The notes under the pieces: generated by a model | The model's database searches: none | The model's input: only the letters and a program-made list of their open reading frames with translations | What the model was told of the DNA's origin: nothing | Source of the DNA: Ralstonia pickettii DTP0602 | Lineage (GTDB): Bacteria > Pseudomonadota > Gammaproteobacteria > Burkholderiales > Burkholderiaceae | NCBI GenBank assembly: GCA_000471925.1 | Contig: CP006667.1 | Coordinates: 2,046,001 to 2,110,000, forward strand | Reading direction: 5' to 3' | DNA: 64,000 bases | Part shown: positions 24,839-47,187 of the stretch, piece after piece | Layout: the number at the start of each line of letters is the position of its first letter | How positions within the stretch are numbered: position 1 is the first letter of the stretch | Program-made: the position numbers and the translations under genes

Positions 24839-25840
24839 ATGGTCGTTCGGAGAACCGAGAGTCGCATTCCGAGCCAACTCCAGGCTTCCGATCTGGGGTC
24901 GGCCGTAGTCTCGGGCGACGGCCATTGCGCGCTGGTTTCCTTTGTCACCTCTCCCATCGTTGTCAATCGCGATAACGTCTACGTCGTGTTCGTGACCGAT
25001 CCGGCGCTTGCTGCGTCGGCCGCGTTGTATGAATGGACGATGTCCCTGGATGGCGGCGCGCCTGACGTGCGCACCACGCCGCATGGCGAGCTGAGCTGCC
25101 GTCCGCCCGCAAGCGGCAGCCTGCATCTGCTGGTCCGCATCCTCGATGCCGGGAGCGCCGAGCAGGCACGGCTTGAAATGACGCAGGACGTGGTCGGAAC
25201 CAGCGCGGCACTCGAAGCGCTGATCGAGAGCGCACGTAACGAGCAAGGCCCGACGGTGGTCAATCCCGATGTCGCGCGCGAGCTGGTCAACGAGCACAAC
25301 CACTACTACCAGAATGTTGCGCTCGGCACGCCTGAGCCGGGCGATGGCTTCAAGACCTTCGTGTTCACGATGGTGCATGACGGCGCGCTCGAACAGGATC
25401 CCGACAACCGCAGGCAACGGCTGGACCGCATCGCCGCGTCACTGAACGACGCGGAGGGCGATTTCGCCACGCTCGCCGCGGGAGGATTCGGCGTCTGCGC
25501 GATCCGGATGGGGCTGCTCGCCATGACCACGCCGACCAGCGCGGGGGCGTCGCCCGCCCTGGCCTGGACCGAGCTGCCGGAGTCGGGCGCACCGCATGCT
25601 TCGGCCGAAGCGCAGCTTCGCCAGGCGCTCGGCGCGCTGGACGTGGACACGCGAACGGACCTGTTCAACCGCGCCCGCTTTCCCAAAAGCAATATTACCC
25701 AGTGCGGTCGCATTCTCGAGACCTTGCGCGACCGCTATTTCGGCGGCGTTGCGTTCAACGACGTGCTTACCGGCATGTCGGGCACGCGCGCGCACTGGAT
25801 CGTTCGCCACTATCGGGAAGGGCCGTTGCATCACGAGTGA
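24839..25840 (+). CDS. First gene of the six-gene giant-protein operon; unknown function
   Basis: The 333-residue protein has no signal peptide. Its N-terminal 110 residues look beta-rich and Ig-like (SFVTSPIVVNRDNVYVVFVT, LYEWTMSLDGG, LHLLVRILDAG). From about residue 120 it is more helical, with VVNPDVARELVNEHNHYYQN and GDGFKTFVFTMVHDGALEQD. I recognise no enzyme motif. ATG 24839 is preferred over GTG 24830 because AGGTG is 6 bases before it. The next gene follows after 33 bases. It may be a scaffold or adaptor of the system. Confidence 0.7.
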   Translation: MVVRRTESRIPSQLQASDLGSAVVSGDGHCALVSFVTSPIVVNRDNVYVVFVTDPALAASAALYEWTMSLDGGAPDVRTTPHGELSCRPPASGSLHLLVRILDAGSAEQARLEMTQDVVGTSAALEALIESARNEQGPTVVNPDVARELVNEHNHYYQNVALGTPEPGDGFKTFVFTMVHDGALEQDPDNRRQRLDRIAASLNDAEGDFATLAAGGFGVCAIRMGLLAMTTPTSAGASPALAWTELPESGAPHASAEAQLRQALGALDVDTRTDLFNRARFPKSNITQCGRILETLRDRYFGGVAFNDVLTGMSGTRAHWIVRHYREGPLHHE

Positions 25841-25873
25841 AATAAGAAGGGCTAACCACTCCGGTGAGGGACC

Positions 25874-27988
25874 ATGCCAACCACCAGGCGGAACCAGACG
25901 GGGAATACCACGGCTTTGCAGGGGATCCCGCCGAACACACCGGGGGGAAGCGGCACGCCAGGCGGCGGTGGCGGCGGGACCGCGGTGAACCGCCCCGCGC
26001 CCGCGCCGACGGGGCCGGCGCCATTGCTCGGCGAGCCCGAATTCATTCCGCAGCACACCTTCATCTCGGCGGCGCAGCCGAACGACAACGGCTTTATCGC
26101 CAATGCGCTCAACTTCCACAACAACGTGTCGCTCCGCCCCAGGACGGTCGGCTCGATCGAGGAAATCCTGGAACTGCTTGCCAACCCGGCGGAAACGGGA
26201 AGCGGCGTGCTCGACCGCATCCGCATCGTGTCGCACTTTTTCGTGCCGGACCCGGGCGAGCCCGACCAGCCCAGCAATATGGGGATCAACTTCCTGCGCA
26301 ACGGGGGGCGCGGCGCGCTGAAGCGGTTCTTCGAGGGCTTCGCGCAAAGCAGCATCGCGGGCCTGCGCGCGCTGCTGGTCTTTGACCTGGTCGGCGGCCA
26401 GAGCGCGCTCACCATCTTCAACAGCCCTGAAACGCTGGTGCTGTCGGCGGTCCGTGCGGCCGGGCAGGGCGCGGCGGTCGACGCGGTATTTCCCCCGGCG
26501 GGCACGCCCTCGGACAACAAGAAGGAATTCGTTATTTTGCACGCCGCCAGATGGGTGCTGGCCCACGGCATGTCCGGCATCGCCGATGCTACCTTGCGGG
26601 CCAATCTGACGAGCGCCTACGACCTGCTGCTCACCGATCTGCGTCCCCGGCTGATAGCCGCCCCCGACAACGTGCCCGGCCCGCAGCTCGATGCCCTGGC
26701 CGCCGCCATCGCGGGCCTTGCCAATCTGGGCGGCGCACAAGTCGTAAGCCCCGCGAACCTGGCGCGCTATGCCGCCAACGTGGCGGCGGGACTGGCCGCG
26801 TTCGCTGGCGATGCTTTCCGCAACAAGATGCTGGCGGTGCGACCCCGTTTCGACCGCTTTACCACCATCGACATCCGCGGCTGCCGGGCGGGCACGGACA
26901 TGGCCTACCTTGCCGCGGTGCAGGCGTTCTTCGGCCGTACGGGCTCGGTGCGTCCGGTCGTGACAGCCCCCAATTTCTTCCAGCGCTTCAACCAGATTTC
27001 CGCGACGACGATGCATGGCCAGCCGCCGCAAGGCCTGGCCGCGACGATCAACGGCCTGCACAATTCCGGAATTCCGCCGACCTATACCGCGGCCCAGGTC
27101 CGCACGCAGTTCGGCGTGTGGGCGGATGGCTTCGGCATCGGCGCGGCCCATCTGACGTTCTGGCACACGACCTTCCAGCTCGGCGTGCTGGAATTCTGCA
27201 AGTTGCAATGGCGCGCCGGCATCCCGGCGCGGCGCGTCACCATCTCGCGGCTCGATGCGCTGCCGGGCGTCGCCTTCGCGGACCTGTTCAACCGGCTGGG
27301 CGATATTTTCCTGGTTCGCGTGGCGCAGCGGCCCACGGCTGCGCAACTCGGTGTCATCTCGCCAAAACTGGGGAACCTGAATACCTGGACGACGCAGCTC
27401 GATGCCGCCATCGACCCCACATCCACGGCAGCGCAGCTGAGCGCGCACTTCACCAACTACAAGACCATCTATGAAGCGGTGGAGGCGCGCATGAGCAACG
27501 CGTCCTTCCACAATTCCCCGCAGCGCATCGTTCCGCCCACCGAGCCGGCCAGCTTTACCGTGGCAAAGGCCACGACGATGCGGACGAACCTGAGGAACTT
27601 CATCCAGACCAACGCCAATTCCATCTTCGCGCCGGTACGCGTGTTCCTGGCCGCCGCGGATGCCAATACCCAGGATGCGCCGGCACGCATGCGTTACTTC
27701 CTGGCGCTCGGCCTGGTGTTCCAGCTGGCGCACACCACCAGCGTCGATTTCAATGTGCAGATCCTGGTGCTGCTCGACGACGGCACCGGGGGCGGGCCGC
27801 ACCACGAGGCAATCCGGCACTGGATGCGCGCGGGCTGGCGCGGCGTTGCGCCGCCCACCATCGCGCCCGGCCTCGATTTCAATCTTGCCCGCCATTCGCA
27901 ATGGGTGGTGTCCGACCGGACGCAGGGACCCGCGGGCGTGTGTCCGCACCCCAGCTATATGTCCCACATCGTCACGCAACCGGCATGA
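25874..27988 (+). CDS. Operon protein 2 (704 aa); possible caspase/CHAT-like fold
   Basis: The protein starts with a Gly/Pro-rich tail (residues 1-50). Two blocks stand out. RIRIVSHFF has His121 at the end of a strand, followed by SNMGINFLRNGG. Later TTIDIRGCRAGTDMAYLAAV has Cys337 at the end of another strand. That His-then-Gly-Cys layout recalls clan CD peptidase relatives (CHAT, DUF4347). The remainder (about 380-700) is helical with no known motif. A GAGGGA site precedes ATG 25874. The fold assignment is inference; the protein may be catalytic or structural. Confidence 0.7.
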   Translation: MPTTRRNQTGNTTALQGIPPNTPGGSGTPGGGGGGTAVNRPAPAPTGPAPLLGEPEFIPQHTFISAAQPNDNGFIANALNFHNNVSLRPRTVGSIEEILELLANPAETGSGVLDRIRIVSHFFVPDPGEPDQPSNMGINFLRNGGRGALKRFFEGFAQSSIAGLRALLVFDLVGGQSALTIFNSPETLVLSAVRAAGQGAAVDAVFPPAGTPSDNKKEFVILHAARWVLAHGMSGIADATLRANLTSAYDLLLTDLRPRLIAAPDNVPGPQLDALAAAIAGLANLGGAQVVSPANLARYAANVAAGLAAFAGDAFRNKMLAVRPRFDRFTTIDIRGCRAGTDMAYLAAVQAFFGRTGSVRPVVTAPNFFQRFNQISATTMHGQPPQGLAATINGLHNSGIPPTYTAAQVRTQFGVWADGFGIGAAHLTFWHTTFQLGVLEFCKLQWRAGIPARRVTISRLDALPGVAFADLFNRLGDIFLVRVAQRPTAAQLGVISPKLGNLNTWTTQLDAAIDPTSTAAQLSAHFTNYKTIYEAVEARMSNASFHNSPQRIVPPTEPASFTVAKATTMRTNLRNFIQTNANSIFAPVRVFLAAADANTQDAPARMRYFLALGLVFQLAHTTSVDFNVQILVLLDDGTGGGPHHEAIRHWMRAGWRGVAPPTIAPGLDFNLARHSQWVVSDRTQGPAGVCPHPSYMSHIVTQPA

Positions 27989-27997
27989 GGCAAAGGC

Positions 27998-30900
27998 ATG
28001 GCTGACGCGCTGCAGAACATCCTCACCGGCGCCGGCCTGGCGATCGCACCGCTGCGCGAGATCGACACGCCCGACAAGGCGGTCGTGTTCTTCCGGCAGC
28101 TCGGTTATGAATTGCCCGCAGGCGCCTTCGGCAGCGCGCTCTCCACCCTGGGCACCGAGGCTACGGGACTGGTGGCGGCCGTCGATACGCTGGCCAATTC
28201 CACCGGCGAAGCCGGCGTCGCCGCCGCGATCGTCAACCTGCTCGGCAAGCTCGGCACCACCATCGATGCGATCCGGCAGCTGCATGTGCAGGTGCAGGCC
28301 GGCGGCGGCGCCGGCGTGCCGGATATCGGGGACCTGCCGCGTCGCCTGACGGATTTCCTGGTGCTGGACTATCTCCACGCGCAACGGCCCGAAGCCCATG
28401 GCGTCTTTCATCTGCTCGGCCTGATCGAGCACGAGCCCGGCGCGGCAAGCGGGACGCCGGCGCGGCTGATCAACTGGGACCGGTTCGGCAAGTTCATCAC
28501 CGAGCCGGGCAGCATCGCCAACGAGGTCTACCAGTGGGACACCGATTTCAATGTCGGCAAGTTCCTCGGCCGCCTCGAACAGATCATGCGCGCGGCCGGC
28601 CTGCGCGGCGGCTTCTACGGTCAGGCCGACGCCACGCGCACGGCGCTGGCCAACACCGGAGCCGACCTTGCCGAGCTGCGCGTTCCGCTGCTGCAGAAAG
28701 GACTGACGCCGGTGACTTACAGCCAGTTCGGCATCACGTTCTCTCCCGCCGAGCCCGCCGGGGGCAAGAAGCGAGGCATCGCGCTGCTGCCCTACCTGAT
28801 GGGGACCACCAGCTTCGATTTCGGCGTCTGCGAACGCGGCGAGCTCGTGTTCGATGCCTCGGGCGAGATCCGTGGCGTGGGCGTCGTCATCCGTCCGCCC
28901 TTCAACGCCGAGGGCATGCTGAACCTGACCGGCGCCTTCAGCGCCGCGCTTACCATCCGGGAAAAACCGGCCCAGGCCGAAGAGCTGGTGCTGATCGGCT
29001 CGCGCGGGGGCACGCGGCTGTCGATCGAGGGGCTTGGCATCAAGTGGTTTATCGCGGGCGACGCGCAGCAAGTGGACGTCGGCGTCGAGGGCCAGGCCCA
29101 GGCCCTGCGGCTGGTGATCGCGCCGGGCGAGGGCGATGGCTTTCTCCAGAAGATGCTGTCCGGCGTAAACATCCAGGCGGAAGCGGGCTTCGGCTTCGGC
29201 ATGAGCCTGCAATCCGGGTTCACCTTCCACGGCGGGGCGAAGTTGGGCCTTGAACTCGGCACCCACCTCGAGATGGGGCCGGTCAAGATCGAGGCGCTGC
29301 GCTTCGCTTTGGCTCCGAGCGCGAGCGACGTCGCGCTCGAGGCCGGCGCGGTGCTGAAATTCGAGCTCGGGCCGCTGCAGGCCGTGGTTGAGAACATCGG
29401 CCTGCGCACGGTGGTGCGCTTTGCGCCCGGCAATATCGGCCCGGCCGACCTCGGGGTCGAATTCAAGCCGCCCAACGGGGTAGGCCTGTCGCTTGAGGCC
29501 GGCGGCTTCAAGGGGGGCGGCTACCTGATGTTCGATGTCGACAAGGGCGAGTATGCCGGTGCGCTCGAACTCGATTTCCAGGGCCTGTTCTCGGCCAAGG
29601 CCATCGGCATCATCAATACCAAACAGCCGGACGGCTCGCCGGGCTTCTCGCTGCTGATCGTGATCGCGGCGGAATTCACGCCGATCCAGCTCAGCTTCGG
29701 CTTTACCCTGAACGGCGTGGGCGGGATCATCGGCCTGAACCGCACCATCGCGGTGTCGGCGCTGGTGGAAGGGGTCCGCACCAATGCCATCAAGAGCATC
29801 CTGTTCCCGCAGGACGTGGTGGCCAACATCAATCGCATCATCAGCGATATCCGGCAGTTCTTCCCGCCGCTGGACGATCATTTCGTGGTCGGGCCGATGG
29901 CCAAGCTGGGCTGGGGAACGCCCTCGATCATCACGGTGGAGCTGGGGCTGCTGCTCGACCTCCCCAATCCGATGTTCGCCATCGTTGGCGTGCTGCGCGC
30001 GGTGCTTCCCGCCGAGGACGCGCCGATCCTCAGGCTCCAGGTCAACTTTATCGGGGTGCTCGACTTCGATCGCGGCTATCTGTTCTTCCGCGCCGACCTG
30101 GTCGATTCGCGGCTGCTGGTCTACACCATTACCGGCAGCATGGCGCTGCTGGTGTCCTGGGGAGAACAGAAGACCTTCGCCCTCAGTGTCGGCGGCTTCC
30201 ATCCGGATTTCCGCGACATCCCGACCATTCCGGCGCTGCCGGACGGCCTGCGCAACATGGCGCGCATCGGCATCAGCCTGCTGTCCGACGACAATCCGCG
30301 CCTGAAGGTGGAATCGTACTTCGCCGTCACCGCCAACACGGTGCAGTTCGGCGCAAAGGTCGAGCTCTATGCGGAGGCGATGGGATTCAACGTCTACGGC
30401 TTCCTCGGCTACGACGTCCTGTTCCAGTTCGAGCCGTTCCGCTTTATCGCGCGGCTGTATGGCGGCATTGCGCTGCGCGAGGATACCTCCGTCATCGCCG
30501 GCATCAATATCACCGCGCAACTGTCGGGGCCTACGCCGTGGGATGCGAGGGGCGAAGCCAGCCTGACCATCCTGTTCTTTGACATCAGCGTCGATTTCCA
30601 TGTCACCTGGGGCGATCCGGCGCCGGCCATCGGCAACCAGACCGAGGACCTGCTGGAGCGGCTCCAACGCGAGATCGCCGACACGCGCAACTGGCGTGCG
30701 GAACTGCCGGCCAACCATCACCTGCACGTCAGCCTGCGCAAGATCGACGAGGCGGACAGCGCTTCGCTGCTGGTCATCCACCCCATGGGCGTGCTGACCT
30801 TCAGCCAGCGCTCGTTTCCGCTCGAGAACTACCTGATCGAGAAATTCGGCAACAAGGCACCGCTGAACGTCAACAAGTTCCGGCTCAGCAATGTCAATGC

Positions 30901-31438
30901 CAACGGGGGGGACATTCCCGCCAACTTCCAGGACACGCGCGAGCAGTTCGCGCCCGGCGAGTTCAGCAAGCTGAGCGACAGTGACAAGCTCTCGCGCCGC
31001 TCGTTCGAGGCGCTGCCCAGCGGCTTTTCGCTGACGGGAACGGGCGATCTCGTGGTACCGCTGCCGGTCCGGCGCGACGTGTCGTACGAACTGAACTACC
31101 TGCACCGCAAGGTCGTGCGCCTGGAGTTCCGGGGCCTCGTGCAGATCGCCCTGCGTGCGTATGACCGGCTGGTCAAGGGCAGCGCGGTGCGCAGGTCGGC
31201 GCTGGCGTTCCAGCAGACCCGGCCGTCGATGAACGCGCCGGAGGCGGTGGTCCTGCCGGAAGAGGACTTTGCCCTCGCCAATGTGTCGGACTTGAAGCCG
31301 CACTTGGCGGGCGCGGGCGGCGCACTGATCTTCAAGACCCAGGCCGAGGCCGCGCAGCGCCAGCAGGAGCTGATCCGCAGCAATCCGGCGCTGGCGGGAC
31401 AGGTCCAGGTTGTATCCCGATTCGAATTGAACTCCTGA
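27998..31438 (+). CDS. Operon protein 3 (1146 aa), DUF6603-like repetitive beta-strand protein
   Basis: Residues about 230-930 are a long series of alternating hydrophobic beta strands with Gly-rich turns, for example FGFGMSLQSGFTFHGGAKLG, VGLSLEAGGFKGGGYLMFDV and ESYFAVTANTVQFGAKVELY. This resembles the DUF6603 family of large bacterial proteins of unknown function. The first 200 residues are helical; the last 180 are mixed (ENYLIEKFGNKAPLNVNKFR). No signal peptide is visible. A long continuous sheet could form a groove for lipids or a structural rod; both are inference. It starts 9 bases after gene 2 with AAAGG upstream. Confidence 0.75.
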   Translation: MADALQNILTGAGLAIAPLREIDTPDKAVVFFRQLGYELPAGAFGSALSTLGTEATGLVAAVDTLANSTGEAGVAAAIVNLLGKLGTTIDAIRQLHVQVQAGGGAGVPDIGDLPRRLTDFLVLDYLHAQRPEAHGVFHLLGLIEHEPGAASGTPARLINWDRFGKFITEPGSIANEVYQWDTDFNVGKFLGRLEQIMRAAGLRGGFYGQADATRTALANTGADLAELRVPLLQKGLTPVTYSQFGITFSPAEPAGGKKRGIALLPYLMGTTSFDFGVCERGELVFDASGEIRGVGVVIRPPFNAEGMLNLTGAFSAALTIREKPAQAEELVLIGSRGGTRLSIEGLGIKWFIAGDAQQVDVGVEGQAQALRLVIAPGEGDGFLQKMLSGVNIQAEAGFGFGMSLQSGFTFHGGAKLGLELGTHLEMGPVKIEALRFALAPSASDVALEAGAVLKFELGPLQAVVENIGLRTVVRFAPGNIGPADLGVEFKPPNGVGLSLEAGGFKGGGYLMFDVDKGEYAGALELDFQGLFSAKAIGIINTKQPDGSPGFSLLIVIAAEFTPIQLSFGFTLNGVGGIIGLNRTIAVSALVEGVRTNAIKSILFPQDVVANINRIISDIRQFFPPLDDHFVVGPMAKLGWGTPSIITVELGLLLDLPNPMFAIVGVLRAVLPAEDAPILRLQVNFIGVLDFDRGYLFFRADLVDSRLLVYTITGSMALLVSWGEQKTFALSVGGFHPDFRDIPTIPALPDGLRNMARIGISLLSDDNPRLKVESYFAVTANTVQFGAKVELYAEAMGFNVYGFLGYDVLFQFEPFRFIARLYGGIALREDTSVIAGINITAQLSGPTPWDARGEASLTILFFDISVDFHVTWGDPAPAIGNQTEDLLERLQREIADTRNWRAELPANHHLHVSLRKIDEADSASLLVIHPMGVLTFSQRSFPLENYLIEKFGNKAPLNVNKFRLSNVNANGGDIPANFQDTREQFAPGEFSKLSDSDKLSRRSFEALPSGFSLTGTGDLVVPLPVRRDVSYELNYLHRKVVRLEFRGLVQIALRAYDRLVKGSAVRRSALAFQQTRPSMNAPEAVVLPEEDFALANVSDLKPHLAGAGGALIFKTQAEAAQRQQELIRSNPALAGQVQVVSRFELNS

Positions 31439-31446
31439 GGCACGAG

Positions 31447-34400
31447 ATGGCGATCGAAGTCGCGAGATACCAGTTCCAGTCGTGGGCGCGCAAAGGCATC
31501 TCCGCCCGGATCAGCGAGCAGGACACGCTGGGGAATCCGGCGGCCGCGCTGCCGCCGGGCGAGCGCGCCTCGGTACCGATCGGCGTGTCCATCAATGGCG
31601 CGCCGCAGACGCCGAAGCCATTCGCGCTGATCGGCTCGGGCGATATCGTCGGCATCCAGCGCGACATGGTGGTGCGCACCGAGCCGCGCAACTGGATCAC
31701 CAACTTCGAGCCCAACTACCTGGCCTTTATCGAGTTCTATGACGAGGATTTTCCCTGGCGCTACACACCGGCCCGGCCCGACGGCGAACGGCTGCGCCCG
31801 TGGATCCAGTTGCTGGTGCTGGAAGAGGGGGAGTTCGAGCGCGACGACCGCCGCCTGCCGCTGCCGGTGGTGACGATCAAGCGCAAGGAGGCGCTGCCGC
31901 CCGCGGACGAAAGCTGGCTGTTCGCGCATGTCCATACCGAGCAGGACATCGGGGCCAGCGAGCTGTCGGGGCTTGAGCAATACCTGAAGTCGCTGCAGGA
32001 GGCGGTCGCCAGCGATCCGGACAAGATCTACAGCCGGCTGCTGTCGCCGCGGCACCTCGCGCCGAACCGGGCTTACCAGGCTTTCCTGGTGCCGGCCTTC
32101 GAGGTCGGCCGCCTGGCCGGCCTGGGGCGCAAGACGGCCGGCATCCCTGCCCAGAAGCCGGCATGGGACGCCACCACCACCAGCGTGGAGCTGCCGTTCT
32201 ATTTCGACTGGTCGTTCCGCACGGGTGAGAACACCGATTTCGAATCGCTGGTTGAGCTGCTCCAGCCGCGCATCCTCGATGCCAGGATCGGCATCCGCTC
32301 GATGGACTGCGCCGAGCCGGGTTTCGTCGTGGTCGACGGGCAGGGCCGCGAGCGGCTGCCTCCGCCTGTCGGACTGCCTGCCGCCGCGCCGCTCGTCCAG
32401 GGGCTCGAAGGCGCGCTGAAGACGGACCGCACGCAATCCCTGCCGCCAGTGTTCACGCCGAACGCATTCCAGGACGAATTGCAGATCCTGGTCAACCTGC
32501 CGGAGACCATCCAGGCCACCAACGCGCCACCGGGTTCGGACGAGTCCTTCCTGAACGATCCCATCGTGACGCTGCCGTTCTACGGGCAGAACCATGCCCG
32601 GCAGCACAAGGCGGACAAGGTGCTGCTCGATACCAGCAAGGACGGGTGGCTGCACGACCTGAACCGGGATCCGCGCACCCGTGTGCCGGCCGCGTTCGGT
32701 ACCTCGGTGGTCCAGAAGAACCAGGAAGCCTTCATGCAGCGCGCGTGGCAGCAGGTACAGAAGGTCCACGAGGCGAACCACACCATGCGGCAGTACCAGT
32801 TCGTGCTGCAGGTGAGTTCGCTGTACTCGTCGGCATTCTTTGCCCGGCTCGAGCCCGCCAATCTTATCGCTGTCACCATGCCGGTCCACGCCAAGGTGCT
32901 CGGCAGCCCCACCACCATTCGCCAGCAGCTGACGGAGAGCCGCCTGGCCGCGCCAGTGTTCAGTGCGCCCGTGCGCCGCATGATCCGTCCCGGCGGCCGG
33001 CTGGCACGGCGCTTCAGCCTGAACCCGGTCGGGCTGGCGCTGGCCACGGTGGTTGGCGCGCTCAACGACGGACGGGTGACGCCGGCCCCGCCGCGTTCCG
33101 TGCCGGAGGGCATTCCGTCGCTGGAGGACGTCGCGAAGGCCATCCAGCCGCGCACTTTCCCGGGCTGGCTGCGCTGGCTGATCCGCAACCGCAGCGTGGC
33201 GTTGCTGATCGCCCTCGCGCTCGTGCTGCTGCTCGGCCTGATGGCCGGGGCCTGGGTGCTTGCCGCCCTGGGCGCTGTCGCAGCGGTCGCGGCGTTCTTC
33301 TGGCTGGACCAGCAGGCGCGCCGGATCGACGCGGCCGCAACGCTTACCGACCCGGAGAAGGCGCTCGCGTCCGTGCAGCAGGTGGCGCCGCGTCCGGACT
33401 TCACCGTAGCGCTGGACCTGGACGAGGGACAGGCCGCGCCCGCGGCGACACCGGGGCCGACACCCGCCGCCGACAGCATCGAGGCGCGCAACTTCCGCAT
33501 GGCCGCCATCCGGCTGCAGCAGCGCGCCGGGGTGCGCACGCCGCCCAAGGCGCCGCTGCCGGCGTTCGACCTGGCCAACGGCAATGCCAGGCTGCGGCAC
33601 GCCATCGACCCGCGCGTGTCGTTTCCGCGGCGGCTGTCGGCCTTCGTCAAGCTGCCGCGATGGACCTTCGACGAGCCCGAGGAGATCGTCGACGCGATGG
33701 CCCATCCGGACTTCGAGGATCCGATGTACAGCTACCTGCGCGATATCAGCAAGGAGCTGCTGATCCCGAACCTGCAGCTGATTCCGCCCAATACCATCTC
33801 GCTGCTGGAGACCAACCCGAAGTTCATCGAATCCTATATGGTCGGCCTCAATCACGAGATGGGGCGCGAGTTGCTGTGGCGCGAGTATCCGACCGACCTG
33901 CGCGGCAGTTATTTCCGGCAGTTCTGGGAGGTCAAGGGCGTGAGCAATCCCGACACGCCGGCGGATGCCGAGCAGCTGAAGGACATCACCAAGATCCACG
34001 CATGGCCGGTGGCGAGCCGGCTGGGCGCGCACAAGCCGCCGCCGGGCCCGCGTGCCGATGTCCAGCCCGGCGAGAAGCAGGTGGTGCTGGTGGTGCGCGG
34101 CGAGTTGCTCAAGCGCTATCCCAACACGGTGGTCTACGCGCAGAAAGCCATCGATGACGGCAAGGGCAACAACGTGCTGCGCGAGAGCGATCCCACGCCG
34201 CACCAGCTCGATATCGAGTTCAAGTTCCCGCTGTTTCGCGCCGAGATCGAACCGGACCTGCGCTTCTTCGGCTTCGACCTGACCACGGACAAGGCCAAGG
34301 GCGAGGTCGACAGCATCGACTTCCCCGGCGACAAGCGGGGCTGGTTCTTCGTGCTTCAGGAGGTGCCGGGCGAGCCGCGCTTCGGCATGGACATCAGCTA

Positions 34401-34662
34401 CAAGCCCACGCGCAACGCCACCCCGCAGACCTCCGACGATCCGCTCGATACCTGGGCCAATCTGGCCTGGAACTGCTTTGGTGCCGCCGAGCCGGCCTTC
34501 GTGCCGCGCGCGCCCGCGCCGGTTTTTCCCCGCCCGGATACGGCCGAATTCAGCCAGCATCCGTGGGGCGTCACGTCGGCGCAGATGGCCTACGCCCTGT
34601 TCCAGAATCCGGTGATGGTAGCCGTCCACGCAGGTGAAATGCTGGAGCTGACGCATGCCTGA
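31447..34662 (+). CDS. Operon protein 4 (1071 aa) with a central transmembrane hairpin; unknown function
   Basis: Residues 1-560 are soluble, with blocks such as FEPNYLAFIEFYDEDFPWRY, AFLVPAFEVGRLAGLG and LPFYFDWSFRTGENTDFESL. Residues 583-620 form two adjacent hydrophobic helices (DNA about 33193-33306), so the protein is probably anchored in a membrane. The C-terminal part holds YMVGLNHEMGRELLWREYPT and SYFRQFWEV. I have an impression of similar blocks in uncharacterised large proteins of other phyla but cannot name a family. It starts 8 bases after gene 3 and overlaps gene 5 by 8 bases. Confidence 0.72.
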   Translation: MAIEVARYQFQSWARKGISARISEQDTLGNPAAALPPGERASVPIGVSINGAPQTPKPFALIGSGDIVGIQRDMVVRTEPRNWITNFEPNYLAFIEFYDEDFPWRYTPARPDGERLRPWIQLLVLEEGEFERDDRRLPLPVVTIKRKEALPPADESWLFAHVHTEQDIGASELSGLEQYLKSLQEAVASDPDKIYSRLLSPRHLAPNRAYQAFLVPAFEVGRLAGLGRKTAGIPAQKPAWDATTTSVELPFYFDWSFRTGENTDFESLVELLQPRILDARIGIRSMDCAEPGFVVVDGQGRERLPPPVGLPAAAPLVQGLEGALKTDRTQSLPPVFTPNAFQDELQILVNLPETIQATNAPPGSDESFLNDPIVTLPFYGQNHARQHKADKVLLDTSKDGWLHDLNRDPRTRVPAAFGTSVVQKNQEAFMQRAWQQVQKVHEANHTMRQYQFVLQVSSLYSSAFFARLEPANLIAVTMPVHAKVLGSPTTIRQQLTESRLAAPVFSAPVRRMIRPGGRLARRFSLNPVGLALATVVGALNDGRVTPAPPRSVPEGIPSLEDVAKAIQPRTFPGWLRWLIRNRSVALLIALALVLLLGLMAGAWVLAALGAVAAVAAFFWLDQQARRIDAAATLTDPEKALASVQQVAPRPDFTVALDLDEGQAAPAATPGPTPAADSIEARNFRMAAIRLQQRAGVRTPPKAPLPAFDLANGNARLRHAIDPRVSFPRRLSAFVKLPRWTFDEPEEIVDAMAHPDFEDPMYSYLRDISKELLIPNLQLIPPNTISLLETNPKFIESYMVGLNHEMGRELLWREYPTDLRGSYFRQFWEVKGVSNPDTPADAEQLKDITKIHAWPVASRLGAHKPPPGPRADVQPGEKQVVLVVRGELLKRYPNTVVYAQKAIDDGKGNNVLRESDPTPHQLDIEFKFPLFRAEIEPDLRFFGFDLTTDKAKGEVDSIDFPGDKRGWFFVLQEVPGEPRFGMDISYKPTRNATPQTSDDPLDTWANLAWNCFGAAEPAFVPRAPAPVFPRPDTAEFSQHPWGVTSAQMAYALFQNPVMVAVHAGEMLELTHA

Positions 34663-37600
34663 GTTCAACGAACAGCTCGAAGCCATCGCCGTGGTGCGCA
34701 CAAACTGCCGCCGGCATGAAGACGACCTTTACACAGCGCGCATCGGCCTCGCCGGCGTCAGGAAGCAGATACGGCGGGCGGAGCAGGGGCAAACGAGCGC
34801 GCAGCCGGATGGGGATGGTGATGCGGCGATACTGCGGGCGCAGGTGGCGGAAACCCAGGCACGCCTCGCGGCAACACGGGAAGCGGTGCGCAAGACCGAA
34901 GCCTGGCTCGCGCGCCTGCGCGAGCAGGAACGGCTGGTGGCGCACCTGGAGCAGCATATCGCCGCGGCTGGCCGCAGGTCTGCCAGCCTGCGCGAACAGC
35001 TGGAAGCGTCGAACCGGCGCGCGCCGCCCGACAAGGAAGAGATCGCCGGGCTGGAAACGGAACTCGCGCGGATCGGGCACACCGGCGACAATCTCCGGGC
35101 GAGCCTGTCCGCAGCGAGCGACCAACTGGGCCGCCTGCGCCAGCAGGAGGACGAGCACCAGGTCAGGCTCACGGCCGGAAGGGCCGACATGGAGGCGCAG
35201 CGGCAATCCCTGGCTGGAGCGCAGGGCCGGCTTGCCGAACTGCTGCAGCCCGCCTTTGCGGACCTGGAGACCCTGAAGGCGAGAGAGCGCGAGCTGCAAT
35301 CCGCCATCGCGCAGGCCAGCGGCAGCCTGGGCCGCTGCAAGGCGGAACTGGGCGGCCTGGTCGGCGGCCTGTACACGGACCCGCATCCCCGCAAGGCGCT
35401 GGCCCGCCTTGATGACGGGACGCCGTTCCTGCTGTTCCCGGTGCGCATCGAGTCGATCTTCGTGCCGACAGGACGCGGTACCGAGCTATGGGTCCGAATC
35501 TATCCGGACGACATCGTCGTGCACACGCACGAGGCCACGCTGACCGATACCGAGGTGGCGGCGGGCGAGCTGTATTGGGTCGAGCTGGTCGCTGCCGAGC
35601 ACCTGCGCGACGAACGCGACCGGCGCCGTCAGGCAGCGTGGCGGCATGTCGTGCAACTCCTCGGCGGCTCGCGCGCGGCCTGGGTGGCCCGGCAGACGCG
35701 TCCGCTGGACTGGTCCGCGCTGGCGGCCGGGGGCGCCACGCAGAACCTGGTCGCCTTCCTGCTGGCCGCGCAGGCGGATTTCTTCGATGGCCTGCTCGCG
35801 CTGCCGCTGCCGGGGGCGGTGCGCCTGGCACTGCAGCAGGCCGTGGCCGAGGAAGATGGCGATGCCTTCATCAGGCTGGTGGAGGCGCAGAAGTGGGGCG
35901 AGCGGGTGAACGAAGCCGTGCGCACGCAGATTGCCGCCTTCCCCGAACACGACCTGACCAAGACCGATGCCTGGACACGCGCGCCCCGTACCCGCGTGCT
36001 GCCGGACCGCTTCGTCTTGCTGCTCTATGGCAGCGAGACGGGGGCGCCGCGCGAGGTTCCCGGCGCGCTGGTGCCGGACACGCTGACGTTGGGCCCCGAT
36101 CCGCTTGACGCCAAGGCAGCGTTCAAGGATCCCGACGGTGCGCTGACGTTTGGCGGCGAGTTCGACTGGATGTCGGACTTCGACAAGGCGGTCGAACAGG
36201 GCATGGCGTTTCGCGTGCCGCTGTCGGCGGAGGAGGCGAGCAATGGCTTTGCCCGGATCTGCGTGCTGGGCGTGATGCTGTCGGCCAGTGCGGCCGACGG
36301 CGCGGCGATGCTGGAGGAGCTGATCGCCAACCACCAGTTCAGCCCCAAGGGATTCAGCCTGGTAGCGCAAGGCACGCCGACCAACAACACCGAGCGCGAC
36401 GGCAGCGGCTATTCCGACAACGATCCCTACGACGACCTGGCCTTTTTTACTGAGGCCGGCCCGCCGGCCTTCGACCCGGCGCACGCCGATCCGCGCAAGC
36501 GCCAGACCGATGGCAGGCAGATCGCCGACGTGCTGGGGATCGCCTACGGACCGCTGCAGACCGTGCGCCGCGCCGACGGCACCGATCTGCTCGAAGCGAC
36601 CGCGATGAACGCGGCGCTGTTTCCGGCCACGCTGGGATACTGGCTGCGGACCTGGATGTCGCCGGTGATCAAGCCCGCGACAGCCAGGCTGGTGCGCAGC
36701 TTCTTTTCCAGCTACGTGACCGGCCGCGGGCCGGTGCCGGCAATACGCGTGGGCGACCAGCCTTACGGCATCCTCGTCACCAGCGATCTGTCGCGCTGGA
36801 AATACCCGGCTCGCGAGGGCGGCATTGCGGGTGTGCTGCTGTTCGACGAGCTGACGCCGTTCCTGGAAGACCTGCACGCGCTGCTGGCCCGCTTCGACAA
36901 GACCTGGCACGGCATCGCGGCCACGCTCCCGTTCGCGGGCAAGCCCGGCACCGATCCCTCCGAGGTGCTGATGCACCTGCTCGGGCTGCATCCCACCTCG
37001 GTCGAGTTCTACCAGCGCATCGGCTATAGCGACGAGTACCTGCGCAACCTGGACAGCTTCAGGGATCGCGGCCGCTACGCCAACGAGCTCGCCTCGCTGA
37101 TCTACTCGATGCCGGCCAGTGCTCGCCTGTATCTCGAGAACCTGGGCTTTCCGCCGCAGATGAGCGATGTCAGCCGCATGAAGAGCCTGCACGTGCTGTG
37201 GCAGCACTACACCACTGCGCTGGATGCGCCCAACCTGGTCGACAGCAGGCCGCCATCGGAAAGCGCCCGGCTTGCGCTCAACTATGTCGACTGGCTGGCC
37301 AGGGCGGGCAGCTTCGACACCATCCTCAAGGAACAGTTCGACGGCGCCAGGCCGTCGTCGCTGCTCTACCTGATGCTGCGCAACGCCGTCCTGCTGCAAC
37401 TTCATCATGGCGCCTACGACTGGTTGCGCGCGCGCGGCGATTTCGAGCCGGCGCTCGAACAGGCGGTGCGCGCCACGACGCTGCCCGGGATGCGCGCGGC
37501 GTCGCCTACGCTGTCGAAGCTGGAGGTCATGTCCGCCAGGGTGGGGGCGGTCCAGCCGGGCCACGCGCTGGCAGCGGCCTCGGTCGCCGATGCGATCTGG

Positions 37601-40447
37601 CGCGGCTATGAGGTGGCCGACGTCGAGGCTGGCTTCGTCGCCGAACAGAAGCAGGCCCTGGCGGTGCTTGCCGATGCCACCACCGCGGCGCTGGAGCGCG
37701 CCTTTGTCGAGCATCTCGACTGTTGCCAGTACCGGCTGGATGCGTGGGAAACCGGCCTGTTCACACAGCGGCTGGCGCAGCAGCGCCGCCTTGGCGCCGA
37801 CGACCGCCGCACCGGCATCTATCTTGGCGCCTTTGGCTGGGTGGAGAGCGTCAAGCCGGCAACCAAGGTCTTCCTGGCGTCGGAATCGTTGCCAGAGTCG
37901 CTGCGTCCTGACGATGCGCGGCCAATCCTGGAGGAAGACGATGCCGTCGCGGTTCCCGGCGCGGCACCTGGATCAAAGCGCGGCGGCTTCATGCATGCGC
38001 CGTCGATCAACCACGCGGCGGCCGGCGCAGTGCTGCGCAACGCCTATCTGAGCCACGCCGATCCGGCCAGGGCGGAGATGTTCTCGGTCAACCTCTCGTC
38101 CGAGCGGGTGCGGCGCGCGGATTTCGTGCTGCAGGGCATGCGCAACGGGCAAGCGATCGAGGCGCTGCTGGGCTACCAGTTCGAGCGCGGGCTGCATGAC
38201 CGCACTTCCGCCAGCGCGGCGCGCGGAGATGTGCCCGTGCTCGAACTCAACCAGTTCATTCTTCCTTACCGCCAGGCCTTTCCTTTCGAGGCGCGCGAAG
38301 TGGTGCAGGCCGGCACCGGCGATCCCAGCGACGCGCTGCCCGCCTACAGCGTGGTCAACGGCTTGCGCCTCGCCACGGCGGCGATGTCGGCCGCCGACGG
38401 CTATGGGTTGTCCGCCATCCTGCCCGCTGCGCAGCGGCCCGATGCGCAGCAGGGCGCGGCCGTCCTGGCCGAGCGCGATGCGTTACGCGACACGCTGGAC
38501 GCGGTCAAGGACCTGCTGATGGCGGAGAACGCCTATCAGCTGGTGCAAGGCAATTTCGATCGGGTCGGGGCGGTCTCGCTGGCGCAGAAAGAAGCGCGGG
38601 TGCCGCCGGCGCTGCAGGTCATCGACACGCCGCGGGGGACGGAATTCACGTTTACCAACCGGCTGACCGTGCATTTCGATGATCTCGACCCAGCGACGGT
38701 GCAGGCCAATCCCTGGCCCGAGATGCCTATGACGCCGCGGGCGCGCGCCGAGACGGGCTTGAACCACTGGCTCGGCTCGATCCTGGCGCCGTCTCCGGCC
38801 AAGGTCCTGTGCGAAATAGCGCGCGAAGGCGGTGCCGACAGGCATGCCGTGAGCCTGGCGGATCTGGGCATCCAGCCCCTGGACTTCGTCTGCATAACCT
38901 CCATTGCGCCGGAAGGCACCGGCGGCGCGACCGAGCTGGAAACCCGGATCGCCTACCAGTACCGGCGCGCCCATGGCATTGACGACGACGAAGCGGTGCG
39001 CGTGGCGTTCAACCCACCAGTCGCATCAGGCGAGCGCACGTTCGCGCAGTTGTTCCCACTGGCGCGCCAGCTACGCGCGATGGTGGCAGAGAGCCGGGCG
39101 GCCAACGCTCGGGATTTCATGCCGGCCGCCGGCGGCAAGGCGACGGCGATTCCGGTGGACAAGGACAATCCGGACGGCTACGACACCGCCGACCTGCGCG
39201 CCCGCGTGCAGGGGGCCTTCGATATGCTCAAGACCCTGGCCGATGCCCTCGACGGTGCCGTTGCGCCCAGCGTGCAACTGGTGCTGCTGAACGATCCGGA
39301 TGACCCCGCCGACGACGAGTCGTTTTCCGGCAAGCTTGGCGCCGCTTTCGACAAGCTGGAGGAAGCCGAACTGGAGTTCACCGACGACAAGGCGCTGACG
39401 GTCGCTTTCCTGGTTTCCGACGCCGAGACGCTTGCCGCGACCCTGCGCGCCGTCGCGGATTTCGGAGTCAGCGACGCGTTCCCGCCGCAGGCCGATCTCA
39501 CTGCGGCCGCGGCGAGGTCGGAACTTCTGGCGCGCGCGCACCGCATCGCCCGGCGCCTGCGGCGAAGCGTCCAGAAAGACGGCGTGCTGGACCGTGCCGG
39601 CGAACTGATCGGCAAGGCCACGCCGGCAACACCGGTCGCCGAGCAGGTCCGGCTCTTGCTCGAGGCGGGCAAGCTGGTGTTCGGGGAAACCTTGCGGATC
39701 CTGCCGGCCTTCCATTGCTACAACGATGCCGACCTTGCGCTGGCGGACTCGGCGCGCGGGCAGCTTCTGGCGCACGCGGTCGCGGCAGTGCCGGGCGCGA
39801 GCGCCGGCGAGATCGTCGACGAGTGGCTGCAGGCGCTGGCGCGCGTGCGCCCCCAGGTGCATCGCTGGGAAGTCATCCGCGTGCTGGCAGAGGCGATGAA
39901 CGATGTCGCGCTCGACATGCTGCCGGTACAGGTGCCCCATCGCAACCAGGATAGCTGGCTGGCGGTGGAGTTCCCGGAGAAGGATCCGCTCGACCCGTCC
40001 CGGGCTTTCGGGATTTCTCGCGATACCTTGTCGATCGCCGCGCACGGCGCCTCCGCGTTCAAGCCCGGCATGCGCCAACGGGCCATCCTGCTCGACGAAT
40101 GGACCGAGGAGATTCCGATGGAGCAGGAGATCACCGGCATTTCGTTCCGCTTCAACCAGCCCAACGCGGCGCCGCCGCAGACTTTGTTGCTCGCGGTGAC
40201 GCCGGAAGAAACCGGTTCATGGAGCTGGGACGCCTTGGCCGGCACGCTAGTCGATACGCTGGGCCGCGCCAAACGGCGCGCGGTGGAGCCGGCGCAGCTG
40301 GAGAAGCAGGGCCTGATATGGAATGCGTTCGCGCCGGCGTTGGTGTCGGAGTTCAGCACATTGATGGAGGCCGACGTATCACTCGACCTGATGCTGATGC
40401 TGGACTATATGCAACTGACCGAGTTCTACGCCGCGGGCACGCGGTGA
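34655..40447 (+). CDS. Operon protein 5 (1930 aa), coiled-coil N-terminus; unknown function
   Basis: Residues 1-215 are a long coiled coil (AQVAETQARLAATREAVRKT, ELARIGHTGDNLRASLSAAS). From about 255 a large soluble body follows: PFLLFPVRIESIFVPTG, ELWVRIYPDDIVVHTHEATL, then at 650-700 NAALFPATLGYWLRTWM and GRGPVPAIRVGDQPYGIL. No catalytic motif is evident. The start overlaps the end of gene 4 (ATGCCTGA), so the two are translationally coupled. Size and architecture suggest a structural or assembly component. It is the largest gene in the window. Confidence 0.72.
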   Translation: MPEFNEQLEAIAVVRTNCRRHEDDLYTARIGLAGVRKQIRRAEQGQTSAQPDGDGDAAILRAQVAETQARLAATREAVRKTEAWLARLREQERLVAHLEQHIAAAGRRSASLREQLEASNRRAPPDKEEIAGLETELARIGHTGDNLRASLSAASDQLGRLRQQEDEHQVRLTAGRADMEAQRQSLAGAQGRLAELLQPAFADLETLKARERELQSAIAQASGSLGRCKAELGGLVGGLYTDPHPRKALARLDDGTPFLLFPVRIESIFVPTGRGTELWVRIYPDDIVVHTHEATLTDTEVAAGELYWVELVAAEHLRDERDRRRQAAWRHVVQLLGGSRAAWVARQTRPLDWSALAAGGATQNLVAFLLAAQADFFDGLLALPLPGAVRLALQQAVAEEDGDAFIRLVEAQKWGERVNEAVRTQIAAFPEHDLTKTDAWTRAPRTRVLPDRFVLLLYGSETGAPREVPGALVPDTLTLGPDPLDAKAAFKDPDGALTFGGEFDWMSDFDKAVEQGMAFRVPLSAEEASNGFARICVLGVMLSASAADGAAMLEELIANHQFSPKGFSLVAQGTPTNNTERDGSGYSDNDPYDDLAFFTEAGPPAFDPAHADPRKRQTDGRQIADVLGIAYGPLQTVRRADGTDLLEATAMNAALFPATLGYWLRTWMSPVIKPATARLVRSFFSSYVTGRGPVPAIRVGDQPYGILVTSDLSRWKYPAREGGIAGVLLFDELTPFLEDLHALLARFDKTWHGIAATLPFAGKPGTDPSEVLMHLLGLHPTSVEFYQRIGYSDEYLRNLDSFRDRGRYANELASLIYSMPASARLYLENLGFPPQMSDVSRMKSLHVLWQHYTTALDAPNLVDSRPPSESARLALNYVDWLARAGSFDTILKEQFDGARPSSLLYLMLRNAVLLQLHHGAYDWLRARGDFEPALEQAVRATTLPGMRAASPTLSKLEVMSARVGAVQPGHALAAASVADAIWRGYEVADVEAGFVAEQKQALAVLADATTAALERAFVEHLDCCQYRLDAWETGLFTQRLAQQRRLGADDRRTGIYLGAFGWVESVKPATKVFLASESLPESLRPDDARPILEEDDAVAVPGAAPGSKRGGFMHAPSINHAAAGAVLRNAYLSHADPARAEMFSVNLSSERVRRADFVLQGMRNGQAIEALLGYQFERGLHDRTSASAARGDVPVLELNQFILPYRQAFPFEAREVVQAGTGDPSDALPAYSVVNGLRLATAAMSAADGYGLSAILPAAQRPDAQQGAAVLAERDALRDTLDAVKDLLMAENAYQLVQGNFDRVGAVSLAQKEARVPPALQVIDTPRGTEFTFTNRLTVHFDDLDPATVQANPWPEMPMTPRARAETGLNHWLGSILAPSPAKVLCEIAREGGADRHAVSLADLGIQPLDFVCITSIAPEGTGGATELETRIAYQYRRAHGIDDDEAVRVAFNPPVASGERTFAQLFPLARQLRAMVAESRAANARDFMPAAGGKATAIPVDKDNPDGYDTADLRARVQGAFDMLKTLADALDGAVAPSVQLVLLNDPDDPADDESFSGKLGAAFDKLEEAELEFTDDKALTVAFLVSDAETLAATLRAVADFGVSDAFPPQADLTAAAARSELLARAHRIARRLRRSVQKDGVLDRAGELIGKATPATPVAEQVRLLLEAGKLVFGETLRILPAFHCYNDADLALADSARGQLLAHAVAAVPGASAGEIVDEWLQALARVRPQVHRWEVIRVLAEAMNDVALDMLPVQVPHRNQDSWLAVEFPEKDPLDPSRAFGISRDTLSIAAHGASAFKPGMRQRAILLDEWTEEIPMEQEITGISFRFNQPNAAPPQTLLLAVTPEETGSWSWDALAGTLVDTLGRAKRRAVEPAQLEKQGLIWNAFAPALVSEFSTLMEADVSLDLMLMLDYMQLTEFYAAGTR

Positions 40448-40456
40448 GGGGAACCT

Positions 40457-42277
40457 ATGCCAAACACCAGACTGACACTGTCGCAACTCACCGGCGCCGA
40501 GCGCTTCCGCTTGCCACGGGTAGTGGCGTTCAACCGGCTCGAATCGCGGCCGCGCACCCTCGATTTCACGCGCAGCCTGCGCGCGGAGGTGCGCGATCCG
40601 CTCTGGATGCTGACCCGCCAGTGGCAGTTCGGTGAGTTCCAGGGGGAGGATGCCGCCTCGCCCGTCACCTCCCGCATCGCCTACCGCCACCAGCCGATCG
40701 ACCGGGTCGCGCTGGCCGATGGCGGGGCCGCGCCCTTCGATCCGCAAGCCATCGCGCTCGAAACCTATGTCGAGCGCGAGCCGATTCCGCTGGTCCTGCG
40801 GGAACTAGTCAGTGGGGAGGTCTACAGCGATACGGTGTTCGCCGTGCGATGGGGCAAGCAATTCCTGAAACGGCTGCGCGCGGCCGGCCTGGACGGCCAC
40901 TACCCGCTGTATCTCGGCCGTTTTCCGCTGCGCGTGCTGCCGGTGGCCCCGCCACCGGGCGATCCCGCGCGCAAGGTCGAGGACACCGACGCCGAGCAGG
41001 TCCGCACCGCGTTGGCGGGGCAAATCGCGGATGGCGTTGCGATCGTGCGCGCCGTACAGGCAGGCACGCATGACGGCTGGCTCGACGGCGAACCCGGCGG
41101 CGACAAGGACCAGCTCAAGAGCATCGCGGCAGCGTTCGCGCAATCCTGCACCGCCGCCATCGGCCGCATGTTCGCGCAGCCGGAAGAGGCGGGCGGTGCC
41201 GCCTGGCTGCCCAATCATCTCGAATACCGCTTTGCGCTCGCCGGGCCGCCCGAGCCGGATGCGGCCGAGCCGGTGCTGCTGGCCGAGCAGTACCACGAGG
41301 GGCGACTGGACTGGTACTCGTTCGACCTGGTCGGCGGCCGCAAGCTGCCGCTCGAGGACGACCCCGCTCCGGCGGCGCCGCCGGAGGAAGTCGAATCCTT
41401 CCTGCCCGGCCCGGTCCGCTTCAAAGGCCAGCCGCGGCCGCGCTTCTGGGAGATGGAGGAGTCGCAGACCGATTTCGGCAAGATCGAGACCTCGGCGACC
41501 GGGCTGCTTCATCTGATGCTCGCCGAGTTTGGCCTGATCTATTCCAACGACTGGTTTATGCTGCCGCATCCGATGCCGGTCAATACGCTCTGCGAAATCC
41601 GCGGCATCGTGGTGGACGATACCTTCGGGCGGCACACCTATATCCGTCCGGCAGGCCGGGCACCGGAAACCGCCTGGCAGCGCTTCGCGCTGTTCCACCT
41701 CACCGAGCGCGACCGCCGCGACGCGGCCAGCCGCTTCTACCTGGTGCCCGCGGTCGGCCACGTCCTCGAAAGCCCGCCGATCGAGCGCGTCAATTTCATG
41801 CGCGATGAAATGGCTAACATGGCGTGGGGCGTTGAAAGCATCGTGCCTTCGCAGATGGGGACGGGGATGAGCGGCAATGACCAGTCGCGCGTCCGTGAGC
41901 CCGCCCCGGCCGCCGCGGCAAGCGAGGAAGCGAAGATTCGCTACCTTGCCGGCAGCACGTCCCCCAGGAACTGGATACCCTTCATCCCCGTGCATCTGGA
42001 GGACAGCGTGAGTGAAGTCCGCCTGCAGCGCGCCCGGATGGCGGGTGCCGCACCGCCCCGTGGCCGGTTGCTGCGCGAACCCGGCTCGCCGTACTTCATC
42101 GAGGAGGAAGAGATCCCGCGTGCCGGCATCTATGTCGAGCGGTCCTGGCAACGTGCGCGCTGGATCGGTGGGCGCACGCTCACCTGGGTCGGCCGGCGCA
42201 AGTCCGCCGGCCGCGGCGAGGGGTGGAGCGAACTCGTGTTTGACCGAATCATCGAGCGCACGACGCAGGATGCCTAG
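40457..42277 (+). CDS. Operon protein 6 (606 aa); unknown function
   Basis: The most striking block is RDPLWMLTRQWQFGEFQGED (residues 46-66), near an N-terminal region RLPRVVAFNRLESRPRTLDF. Later blocks are RLDWYSFDLVGGRKLPLEDD and FGLIYSNDWFMLPHPMPVNT. There is no signal peptide, membrane segment or known active site. GAGGGGAA lies before ATG 40457, 9 bases after gene 5. It ends the operon; a T8 run at 42362-42369 after GGCGCC may contribute to termination. Confidence 0.72.
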   Translation: MPNTRLTLSQLTGAERFRLPRVVAFNRLESRPRTLDFTRSLRAEVRDPLWMLTRQWQFGEFQGEDAASPVTSRIAYRHQPIDRVALADGGAAPFDPQAIALETYVEREPIPLVLRELVSGEVYSDTVFAVRWGKQFLKRLRAAGLDGHYPLYLGRFPLRVLPVAPPPGDPARKVEDTDAEQVRTALAGQIADGVAIVRAVQAGTHDGWLDGEPGGDKDQLKSIAAAFAQSCTAAIGRMFAQPEEAGGAAWLPNHLEYRFALAGPPEPDAAEPVLLAEQYHEGRLDWYSFDLVGGRKLPLEDDPAPAAPPEEVESFLPGPVRFKGQPRPRFWEMEESQTDFGKIETSATGLLHLMLAEFGLIYSNDWFMLPHPMPVNTLCEIRGIVVDDTFGRHTYIRPAGRAPETAWQRFALFHLTERDRRDAASRFYLVPAVGHVLESPPIERVNFMRDEMANMAWGVESIVPSQMGTGMSGNDQSRVREPAPAAAASEEAKIRYLAGSTSPRNWIPFIPVHLEDSVSEVRLQRARMAGAAPPRGRLLREPGSPYFIEEEEIPRAGIYVERSWQRARWIGGRTLTWVGRRKSAGRGEGWSELVFDRIIERTTQDA

Positions 42278-47065: not shown

Positions 47066-47187
47066 ACCGCCCGATCATGAAATGGCCTACCCCCCTTTTC
47101 TCCAAGGTGGGCCTTCAAGCCTGTGGCCGCGATCCCCGGCCTAGAGCCGCAGTTCACCCAGCGTCCGTCCGCACTGGCCCAGCATTG

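Follow-up and report, generated by a model that had tools for sequence, protein, structure and literature searches.

A four-gene core of giant proteins with an exchangeable upstream enzyme in Ralstonia pickettii DTP0602 and other prokaryotes: a candidate apparatus for holding and delivering enzymes

The window analyzed here, a 64,000-nucleotide (nt) stretch of the Ralstonia pickettii DTP0602 genome (8.13 Mb in three contigs; positions 2,046,001-2,110,000 of contig C1), contains an operon of six genes, G1 to G6, that together encode several giant proteins. The operon is real, and its last four genes, G3-G6, form a fixed core that recurs in Bacteria and Archaea, with G1 and G2 lying outside this core, in a position that in other loci is usually filled by another enzyme. 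The loci appear, almost certainly, to be modular, each combining a core with a cognate enzyme. The interpretation that we favor, with a probability of roughly 0.5, is that the G3-G6 core holds and positions, and probably delivers, one exchangeable enzyme encoded upstream of it. A core of ~4,750 residues that is found in two domains of life, and for which our searches returned no described function, would be a sizeable blank in our knowledge of prokaryotic machines; if the interpretation is true, the core would also provide a natural platform for swapping proteases, phosphodiesterases, and oxidases. The six genes, in window coordinates, are:

24839-25840, plus strand: G1, 333 residues from ATG, with an alternative GTG start 9 nt upstream
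25874-27988, plus strand: G2, 704 residues
27998-31438, plus strand: G3, 1146 residues
31447-34662, plus strand: G4, 1071 residues
34655-40447, plus strand: G5, 1930 residues
40457-42277, plus strand: G6, 606 residues

Genome contigs were scanned with a G4 alignment, giving 400 relatives, from which 80 loci were kept and joined by that of the window. In these 81 loci, which were gathered via G4 or via DUF6603 (the family of G3) and many of which lie on contigs that end early, G4 is present in 81 by construction, and iterated models recovered G3 in 78, G5 in 76, and G6 in 67. All 59 loci in which the four genes are full-length keep the order G3-G4-G5-G6 on a single strand (59/59; median spacing -1, 14, and -4 nt), and the distance matrices of the four proteins are closely correlated (Mantel r 0.91-0.97; permutation maximum 0.164). 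Identical core order is also seen on haloarchaeal plasmids. When 8000 candidates were scored for each of three proteins, at least 2938 homologues were counted for G4, at least 2409 for G6, and at least 15 for G2, the query included. The initial annotation had presented all six genes as one unit that would recur together in unrelated genomes. Joint recurrence holds for G3-G6 but not for G1 and G2, whose models match only 6/81 and 5/81 loci, respectively, and co-occurrence of all six genes is rejected; G1 and G2 fill the enzyme slot described below and do not belong to the machine proper.

The core appears to have spread horizontally between phyla. A G4 tree of 103 rows (FastTree, with L001, L120, and G4 open reading frames (ORFs) shorter than 900 residues excluded and long branches flagged) spans 13 bacterial phyla according to the deposited genome labels, which may be wrong for metagenome bins, and requires 28 phylum changes versus a minimum of 12. 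The G4 of the window groups, with full support, with one protein labeled Acidobacteria and one labeled Methylococcaceae. Occurrence is sporadic, the core being present in 8/295 genomes of the Chitinophaga class, 10/216 of the Kribbella class, and 4/194 of the Phormidium class, where each count includes the core-bearing genome at the center of the class. Within the Chitinophaga class, one genome has two copies ~18 kb apart (L124 and L125). A close G4 was detected in 1/398 Pseudomonadota genomes, namely the window's own, by a close alignment that would miss divergent cores such as those of L097-L099. The latter three loci come from the window's own genus, in which five other searched genomes have a divergent DUF6603 protein and all three that were fetched have a complete divergent core; the genus carries two unlike core lineages, that of the window and that of L097-L099. 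A G4 relative is contained in 13/72,556 plasmid records. A phage origin is rejected: the 31 pattern matches among viral_contigs include no relative, the single match among 50,697 phage records is an unverified fecal scaffold, and no PHROG reached an E-value below 0.06.

DUF6603 by itself does not mark the operon. It occurs in 9/398 genomes of the window's phylum, the own genome included, and none of the seven loci fetched from the eight others (L090-L096) carries the core (0/7), so that DUF6603 as an operon marker is rejected. Orthologues found singly in unrelated contexts had been named in the initial annotation as one result that would speak against a joint system, and this was found in part, for DUF6603 alone. 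L094 alone shows a weak match resembling G4 (E 3e-5), which may point to a rearranged cousin. In L092-L096, from other Pseudomonadota, DUF6603 is found in a second type of context, with one giant DUF6603 protein; the corresponding ORFs of L092, L093, and L095 are ~3,250 residues long and have companions of ~690, 345, and 1,270 residues, those of L092 being devoid of Pfam hits.

The position directly upstream of G3 is what we refer to as the enzyme slot. The slot gene was defined, in core loci with 1.5 kb or more of available sequence, as the longest ORF that lies on the same strand within 250 nt of G3 and has a minimum of 200 residues, and the same rule was applied downstream of G6 as a control. 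A slot gene is present upstream in 84/97 loci versus 14/66 downstream, and eight enzyme classes account for 65 of the 84 upstream genes versus one of the 14 downstream genes (M64). These loci were not dereplicated (L008 and L120 are identical), and L001, L106, and L090-L096 were excluded. Clustering G4 at 90% identity, which reduces 112 loci to 101 clusters, gave a slot gene in 75/86 clusters and an assigned class in 56 of these 75, in a recount that covers the upstream side. Classes were assigned by BLAST at 1e-3 to seeds drawn from the same loci, with the seed classes named by Pfam matches of representatives or, for the G2-like class, by motif; gaps were counted from the first possible start codon. 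The upstream enzymes are trypsin-like (S1, 22 loci), subtilases (S8, 15), PhoD-like (15), or G2-like (six, the window being the seventh), the rarer classes being M64 (three), PLD (two), galactose-oxidase type (one), and tyrosinase (one).

Each of the major classes is taxonomically broad. The S1 proteins, all of which contain GDSG (22/22), come from Pseudomonadota, Chloroflexota, Planctomycetota, Cyanobacteriota, Actinomycetota, and Bacteroidota, and the PhoD proteins from Bacteroidota, Ignavibacteriota, Actinomycetota, Cyanobacteriota, and haloarchaea, the phylum of some slot loci being taken from the search group. On the G4 tree, the slot class changes at least 24 times among 63 rows, compared to a minimum of 7, a shuffle mean of 36, and a shuffle minimum of 29; the enzyme class is inherited for some time and then exchanged. 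The trypsin-type slot enzyme of L048 resembles the plant trypsin-like protease NARROW LEAF 1 (PDB 7y77; E 2e-4), and NAL1_N and Nal1_C were found in 8/29 and 5/29 of the slot proteins scanned, respectively. However, the likeness covers the protease alone and concerns other loci, not the window. On a Nocardia plasmid, an S8 peptidase is encoded after the core and not before it (L141, 19707-23417).

Exchange of the enzyme is accompanied by exchange of the N-terminal half of G3. This is well illustrated by L048 (Methylococcales, trypsin-like) and L058 (Nitrosomonas ureae, tyrosinase), in which G4, G5, and G6 are 90%, 89%, and 89% identical, respectively, and the DNA forms a single 13 kb alignment at 86% that starts inside G3, with the G3 proteins being 24% identical up to window-G3 residue 489 and 95% identical beyond it. 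The best two-segment breakpoint lies at window-G3 residues 478-489 in 8/8 close pairs of different class, which were chosen from among the closest such pairs, share loci, and are not independent; G3 identity in these pairs is 0.20-0.31 before the breakpoint and 0.76-0.95 after it. The same pattern emerges from a distance test on 60 rows (363 same-class and 1394 different-class pairs, excluding slots without a class and G3 or G4 ORFs outside the length limits). Relative to same-class pairs at the same G4 distance, those of different class show an excess distance of 0.115 in G3 residues 1-400 and of 0.023 in the rest, and neither excess was reached in any of 1000 label shuffles, which ignore relatedness. 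For G4 distances below 0.2, the N-terminal G3 distance is 0.02-0.30 in 29 same-class pairs and 0.71-0.78 in three different-class pairs, bearing in mind that N-terminal alignments below ~30% identity are near chance level. Because the N-terminal half of G3 is swapped with the enzyme at a single breakpoint while the rest stays alike, it is enzyme-specific and replaced together with the slot enzyme. This co-exchange points to a likely contact between the two, and, most simply, the G3 half and the enzyme gene would travel as one cassette, since a mutual fit would be needed. The corresponding part of the window's G3 is placed by comparison with relatives, not from this locus:

27998-29458, plus strand: G3 residues 1-487, putative variable, enzyme-specific half

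Although their folds are unrelated, the trypsin-like and subtilase slot enzymes have an undescribed 94-residue domain in common, with the signature E..xLxNxxRxVxxxWHRxxGPAxxA. The domain is found on 22/22 S1 and 8/15 S8 slot proteins, mostly at the C-terminus, and one L079 protein continues for ~270 residues beyond it. It was detected in 13/18 core-bearing genomes, where 16 of its 17 hits lie beside the core by position. It was not found in 398 genomes of the window's phylum, which is a weak negative (no more than 12 candidates scored per genome, without a positive control). A docking domain common to every slot enzyme was also searched for, and none was found.

In the window, the slot enzyme is G2, a predicted caspase-like (clan CD) cysteine peptidase that is not filed as a member of the clan. 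Two residues of G2, His121 and Cys337 (the latter in DIRGC), are invariant in 7/7 homologues:

26234-26236, plus strand: codon of the predicted catalytic His121 of G2
26882-26884, plus strand: codon of the predicted catalytic Cys337 of G2

The histidine and cysteine are located in SH and GC motifs, which we take to be the pattern of the clan-CD dyad, and G2 has no Pfam or PDB profile match to a clan-CD peptidase. G1 is probably a partner of the slot enzyme. In an alignment of seven, its homologues are either encoded ahead of G2-type enzymes or joined to them as an N-terminal part. Both were seen in six loci (the window, L023, L041, L043, L064, and L134), in L041 and L043 as a fusion with the G1 part at the N-terminus. 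Beyond these loci, the slot is usually filled by another enzyme.

The candidate for contact with a membrane is G4, owing to a central segment:

33187-33315, plus strand: G4 residues 581-623, central hydrophobic segment, candidate membrane hairpin

Of 93 G4 homologues, 74 reach the cut-off, and in these the hydrophobic segment lies at relative position 0.51-0.60. Reaching the hydrophobicity cut-off is in itself no proof of a membrane segment, because G3 (72/83), G5 (22/81), and G6 (8/63) also show such windows; what distinguishes G4 is the constant position. Signal peptides were not found in core or slot proteins by a crude hydrophobicity-window filter, which flagged 2/57 slot proteins (both judged false by eye), 2/83 G3, 1/81 G5, 0/93 G4, 0/63 G6, 0/5 G1, and 0/6 G2 proteins. 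Many of the enzyme types found in the slot mostly act outside the cytosol. Because enzymes of such types, lacking export signals, adjoin a membrane-prone complex, delivery or display of the enzyme would seem a plausible function. Among core variants, Pfam identifies an LTD domain in an archaeal G6 and an FG-GAP domain in a Streptomyces G4; the annotation of haloarchaeal G5 lists BGTF surface domains, which the Pfam scan did not show.

Apart from G3 in DUF6603, the core belongs to no known system that was tested. G3 matches DUF6603 (PF20248) in Pfam with an E-value of 1.6e-128 and 429.9 bits versus a cut-off of 27, over positions 2-501 of the 502-position profile, and is thus a full-length member. 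However, the family entry gives no function, G3 is only one of four core proteins, and the family occurs in other contexts too. For G1, G2, and G4-G6, no match above curated cut-offs was found in Pfam or NCBIfam and no PHROG with an E-value below 0.06. Among these five proteins, PADLOC 2.0.0 returned nothing apart from coiled-coil matches of G5 to JetC, LmuB, and ZorA. These are confined to the N-terminal coil, as are weak SMC, Rad50, and PspA-type matches, and an SMC-like or Jet/Lamassu identity of G5 is rejected:

34679-35329, plus strand: coiled-coil N-terminus of G5, approximately residues 9-225, with only weak SMC, Rad50, and PspA-type coil matches

In PDB profile searches, G4 gave no match, nor did G3 when used as a single sequence, and profiles of G1-G3, G5, G6, and the 94-residue domain gave weak matches, mostly to designed or generic helical bundles, with best E-values of 0.0035 for G3 and 0.0043 for G5. 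Full-text searches of 5.39 million open papers returned none that names DUF6603 or PF20248 and none on such a gene cluster. Most of what the initial annotation said about individual proteins survives these comparisons. Its DUF6603-like protein is G3, which passes the curated cut-off along the whole domain; its membrane-anchored and caspase-like proteins correspond to the membrane-prone G4 and, through the invariant His121 and Cys337, to G2, in both cases as judged from sequence alone; and, as far as the searched libraries go (Pfam, NCBIfam, PHROGs, PADLOC, and viral contigs), its statement stands that no component is known as part of a secretion, conjugation, or phage system. Its "huge coiled-coil protein" has to be narrowed, as G5 does contain a coil, but one limited to approximately the first 225 of 1930 residues.

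These observations can be combined into a model in which each core handles one enzyme at a time and the enzyme performs the chemistry, the presumed cargo in the window being the G2 peptidase. The N-terminal half of G3 would be the cognate holder or inhibitor of its own enzyme, and a second contact may be made via the 94-residue domain or, in the window locus, via G1. The constant C-terminal half of G3 together with G4-G6 would constitute the apparatus, with G4 putting its hydrophobic hairpin into the membrane. The apparatus could then bring the enzyme to or across the membrane, and the enzyme would act beyond the membrane or on a target cell. That delivery takes place outside the producing cytosol is a conjecture to which we give slightly less than even odds. 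More doubtful is the full form of the model, namely an undescribed cross-domain machine for protein delivery, built from four giant proteins without a dedicated ATPase, inserting the G4 hairpin, carrying interchangeable enzymes held by the matching, co-exchanged half of G3, and forming a counterpart, of separate ancestry, to contractile injection systems and polymorphic toxins.

A number of observations weigh against this model. The searches found no structural, ATPase, channel, or secretion homology; 19/93 G4 proteins do not reach the cut-off for hydrophobicity; and missing signal peptides would fit a purely cytosolic system too. The match between G3 and enzyme class is imperfect, as five same-class pairs with G4 distances below 0.4 differ by 0.66-0.77 in the N-terminal half of G3, two of these being pairs of subtilases of which one has the 94-residue domain and one does not. 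The 94-residue domain is absent from the PhoD, M64, PLD, tyrosinase, galactose-oxidase, and G2 enzymes, and in Chitinophaga sp. S165 (L117, 4291-6394), it is present on a trypsin-like protein away from the core, next to another trypsin-like ORF. Moreover, the enzymes of L059 and L069 both have the domain, yet their G3 halves differ; because of this, the domain cannot be the feature that the G3 half recognizes, and it more likely touches another, constant part of the core. Finally, 19/84 slot genes have no assigned class and 13/97 loci no tight upstream gene, as might be expected if the upstream genes were unrelated neighbors and G3-G6 a stand-alone core of other function. We consider this last explanation highly improbable, since a change of enzyme class goes along with replacement of the N-terminal half of G3, the downstream control gave a gene in 14/66 loci with one assigned, the same enzyme classes recur in unrelated phyla, and two different folds have one domain in common.

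The main rival to the holding-and-delivery model is an intracellular immunity or cell-death complex, in which the core senses an invader and frees a bound protease or phosphodiesterase, so that the cell is killed or arrested; here, the N-terminal half of G3 would be the holder or inhibitor of the enzyme, a role that its enzyme-specific exchange suits equally well. The sporadic distribution of the core (8/295, 10/216, and 4/194 genomes), the G4 relatives on plasmids (13/72,556), the signal peptides missing by the crude filter, and a broken Gabija system upstream of the operon all agree with immunity, and exchange of trypsin- and caspase-like peptidases in the effector position of bacterial conflict systems is described by Kaur et al. 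(2020; PMC7159879). Those conflict systems are, however, NTP-dependent, whereas no NTPase, vWA, or MoxR family is found in the six window proteins. Nor did Pfam and NCBIfam reveal a STAND or nuclease family in them, beyond the coil-only SMC and Rad50 matches of G5, and PADLOC contributed no family beyond the coiled coil. Tyrosinase, galactose oxidase, M64, and PhoD would also be unusual defense effectors. On balance, we regard immunity as rather unlikely. A surface scaffold, with the core anchored in the envelope by G4 and one hydrolase or oxidase displayed on the cell surface to serve in feeding or matrix processing, would account for the central hydrophobic segment of G4, for enzyme types that usually work outside, and for the LTD and FG-GAP domains of core variants (as well as for the BGTF annotation of haloarchaeal G5, which Pfam did not confirm). 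The lack of signal peptides by the crude filter argues against such display, which seems to us clearly improbable.

In function, the core may by analogy resemble an apparatus with exchangeable effectors. Contractile injection systems, type VI secretion systems, and Tc toxins likewise combine a conserved apparatus with exchangeable enzyme cargo lacking signal peptides, but searches of Pfam, PHROGs, and NCBIfam with the six proteins gave no match to a sheath, tube, baseplate, or spike component, an ATPase, or an RHS or Tc protein. Polymorphic toxins similarly have a constant part and a variable part that changes with the effector, the two meeting at a fixed breakpoint. In the present system, however, it is a core protein that contains the breakpoint, its gene follows that of the enzyme, and the enzyme is made as a protein of its own; moreover, Pfam finds no RHS, WXG, or two-partner part in the six proteins.

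On recheck, the gene layout given in the initial annotation proved exact, with six co-directional ORFs of the lengths listed above separated by 33, 9, 8, -8, and 9 bp, and each of G2-G6 is indeed preceded by its own ribosome-binding site of GAGG or GGAG type, that of G1 being weaker. ORF length is insufficient on its own as proof of coding, because antisense ORFs of 1954 and 1201 residues cross the same GC-rich stretch. The five genes that were compared with relatives at 50-67% amino acid identity (G1, G3, G4, and G5 with L003 and G6 with L002) differ in 0.56-0.72 of codons at position 3 and in 0.16-0.33 at position 2. They are under purifying selection, and the earlier claim that selection has kept the operon is borne out for these five.

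The GC content of the operon is 67.4%, compared to 60.8% upstream and 61.7% downstream. Approximately 3 kb upstream lies a disrupted Gabija-like pair (19957-21986), in which the GajA-type protein (E 8e-180) lacks the first ~186 profile positions and the GajB-type fragment covers only the first ~80 of 625; an IS66 transposase (17938-19515) is located just upstream of the pair. An empty site could not be read from the flank running from a GMC oxidoreductase to a cupin, for which a search of 20 other genomes of the genus matched only a ~420-nt 3' end and short, chance-like pieces. Downstream of the operon, ~420 nt at 47182-47604 are repeated in this and related genomes at ~90% identity and resemble the remnant of a mobile element.

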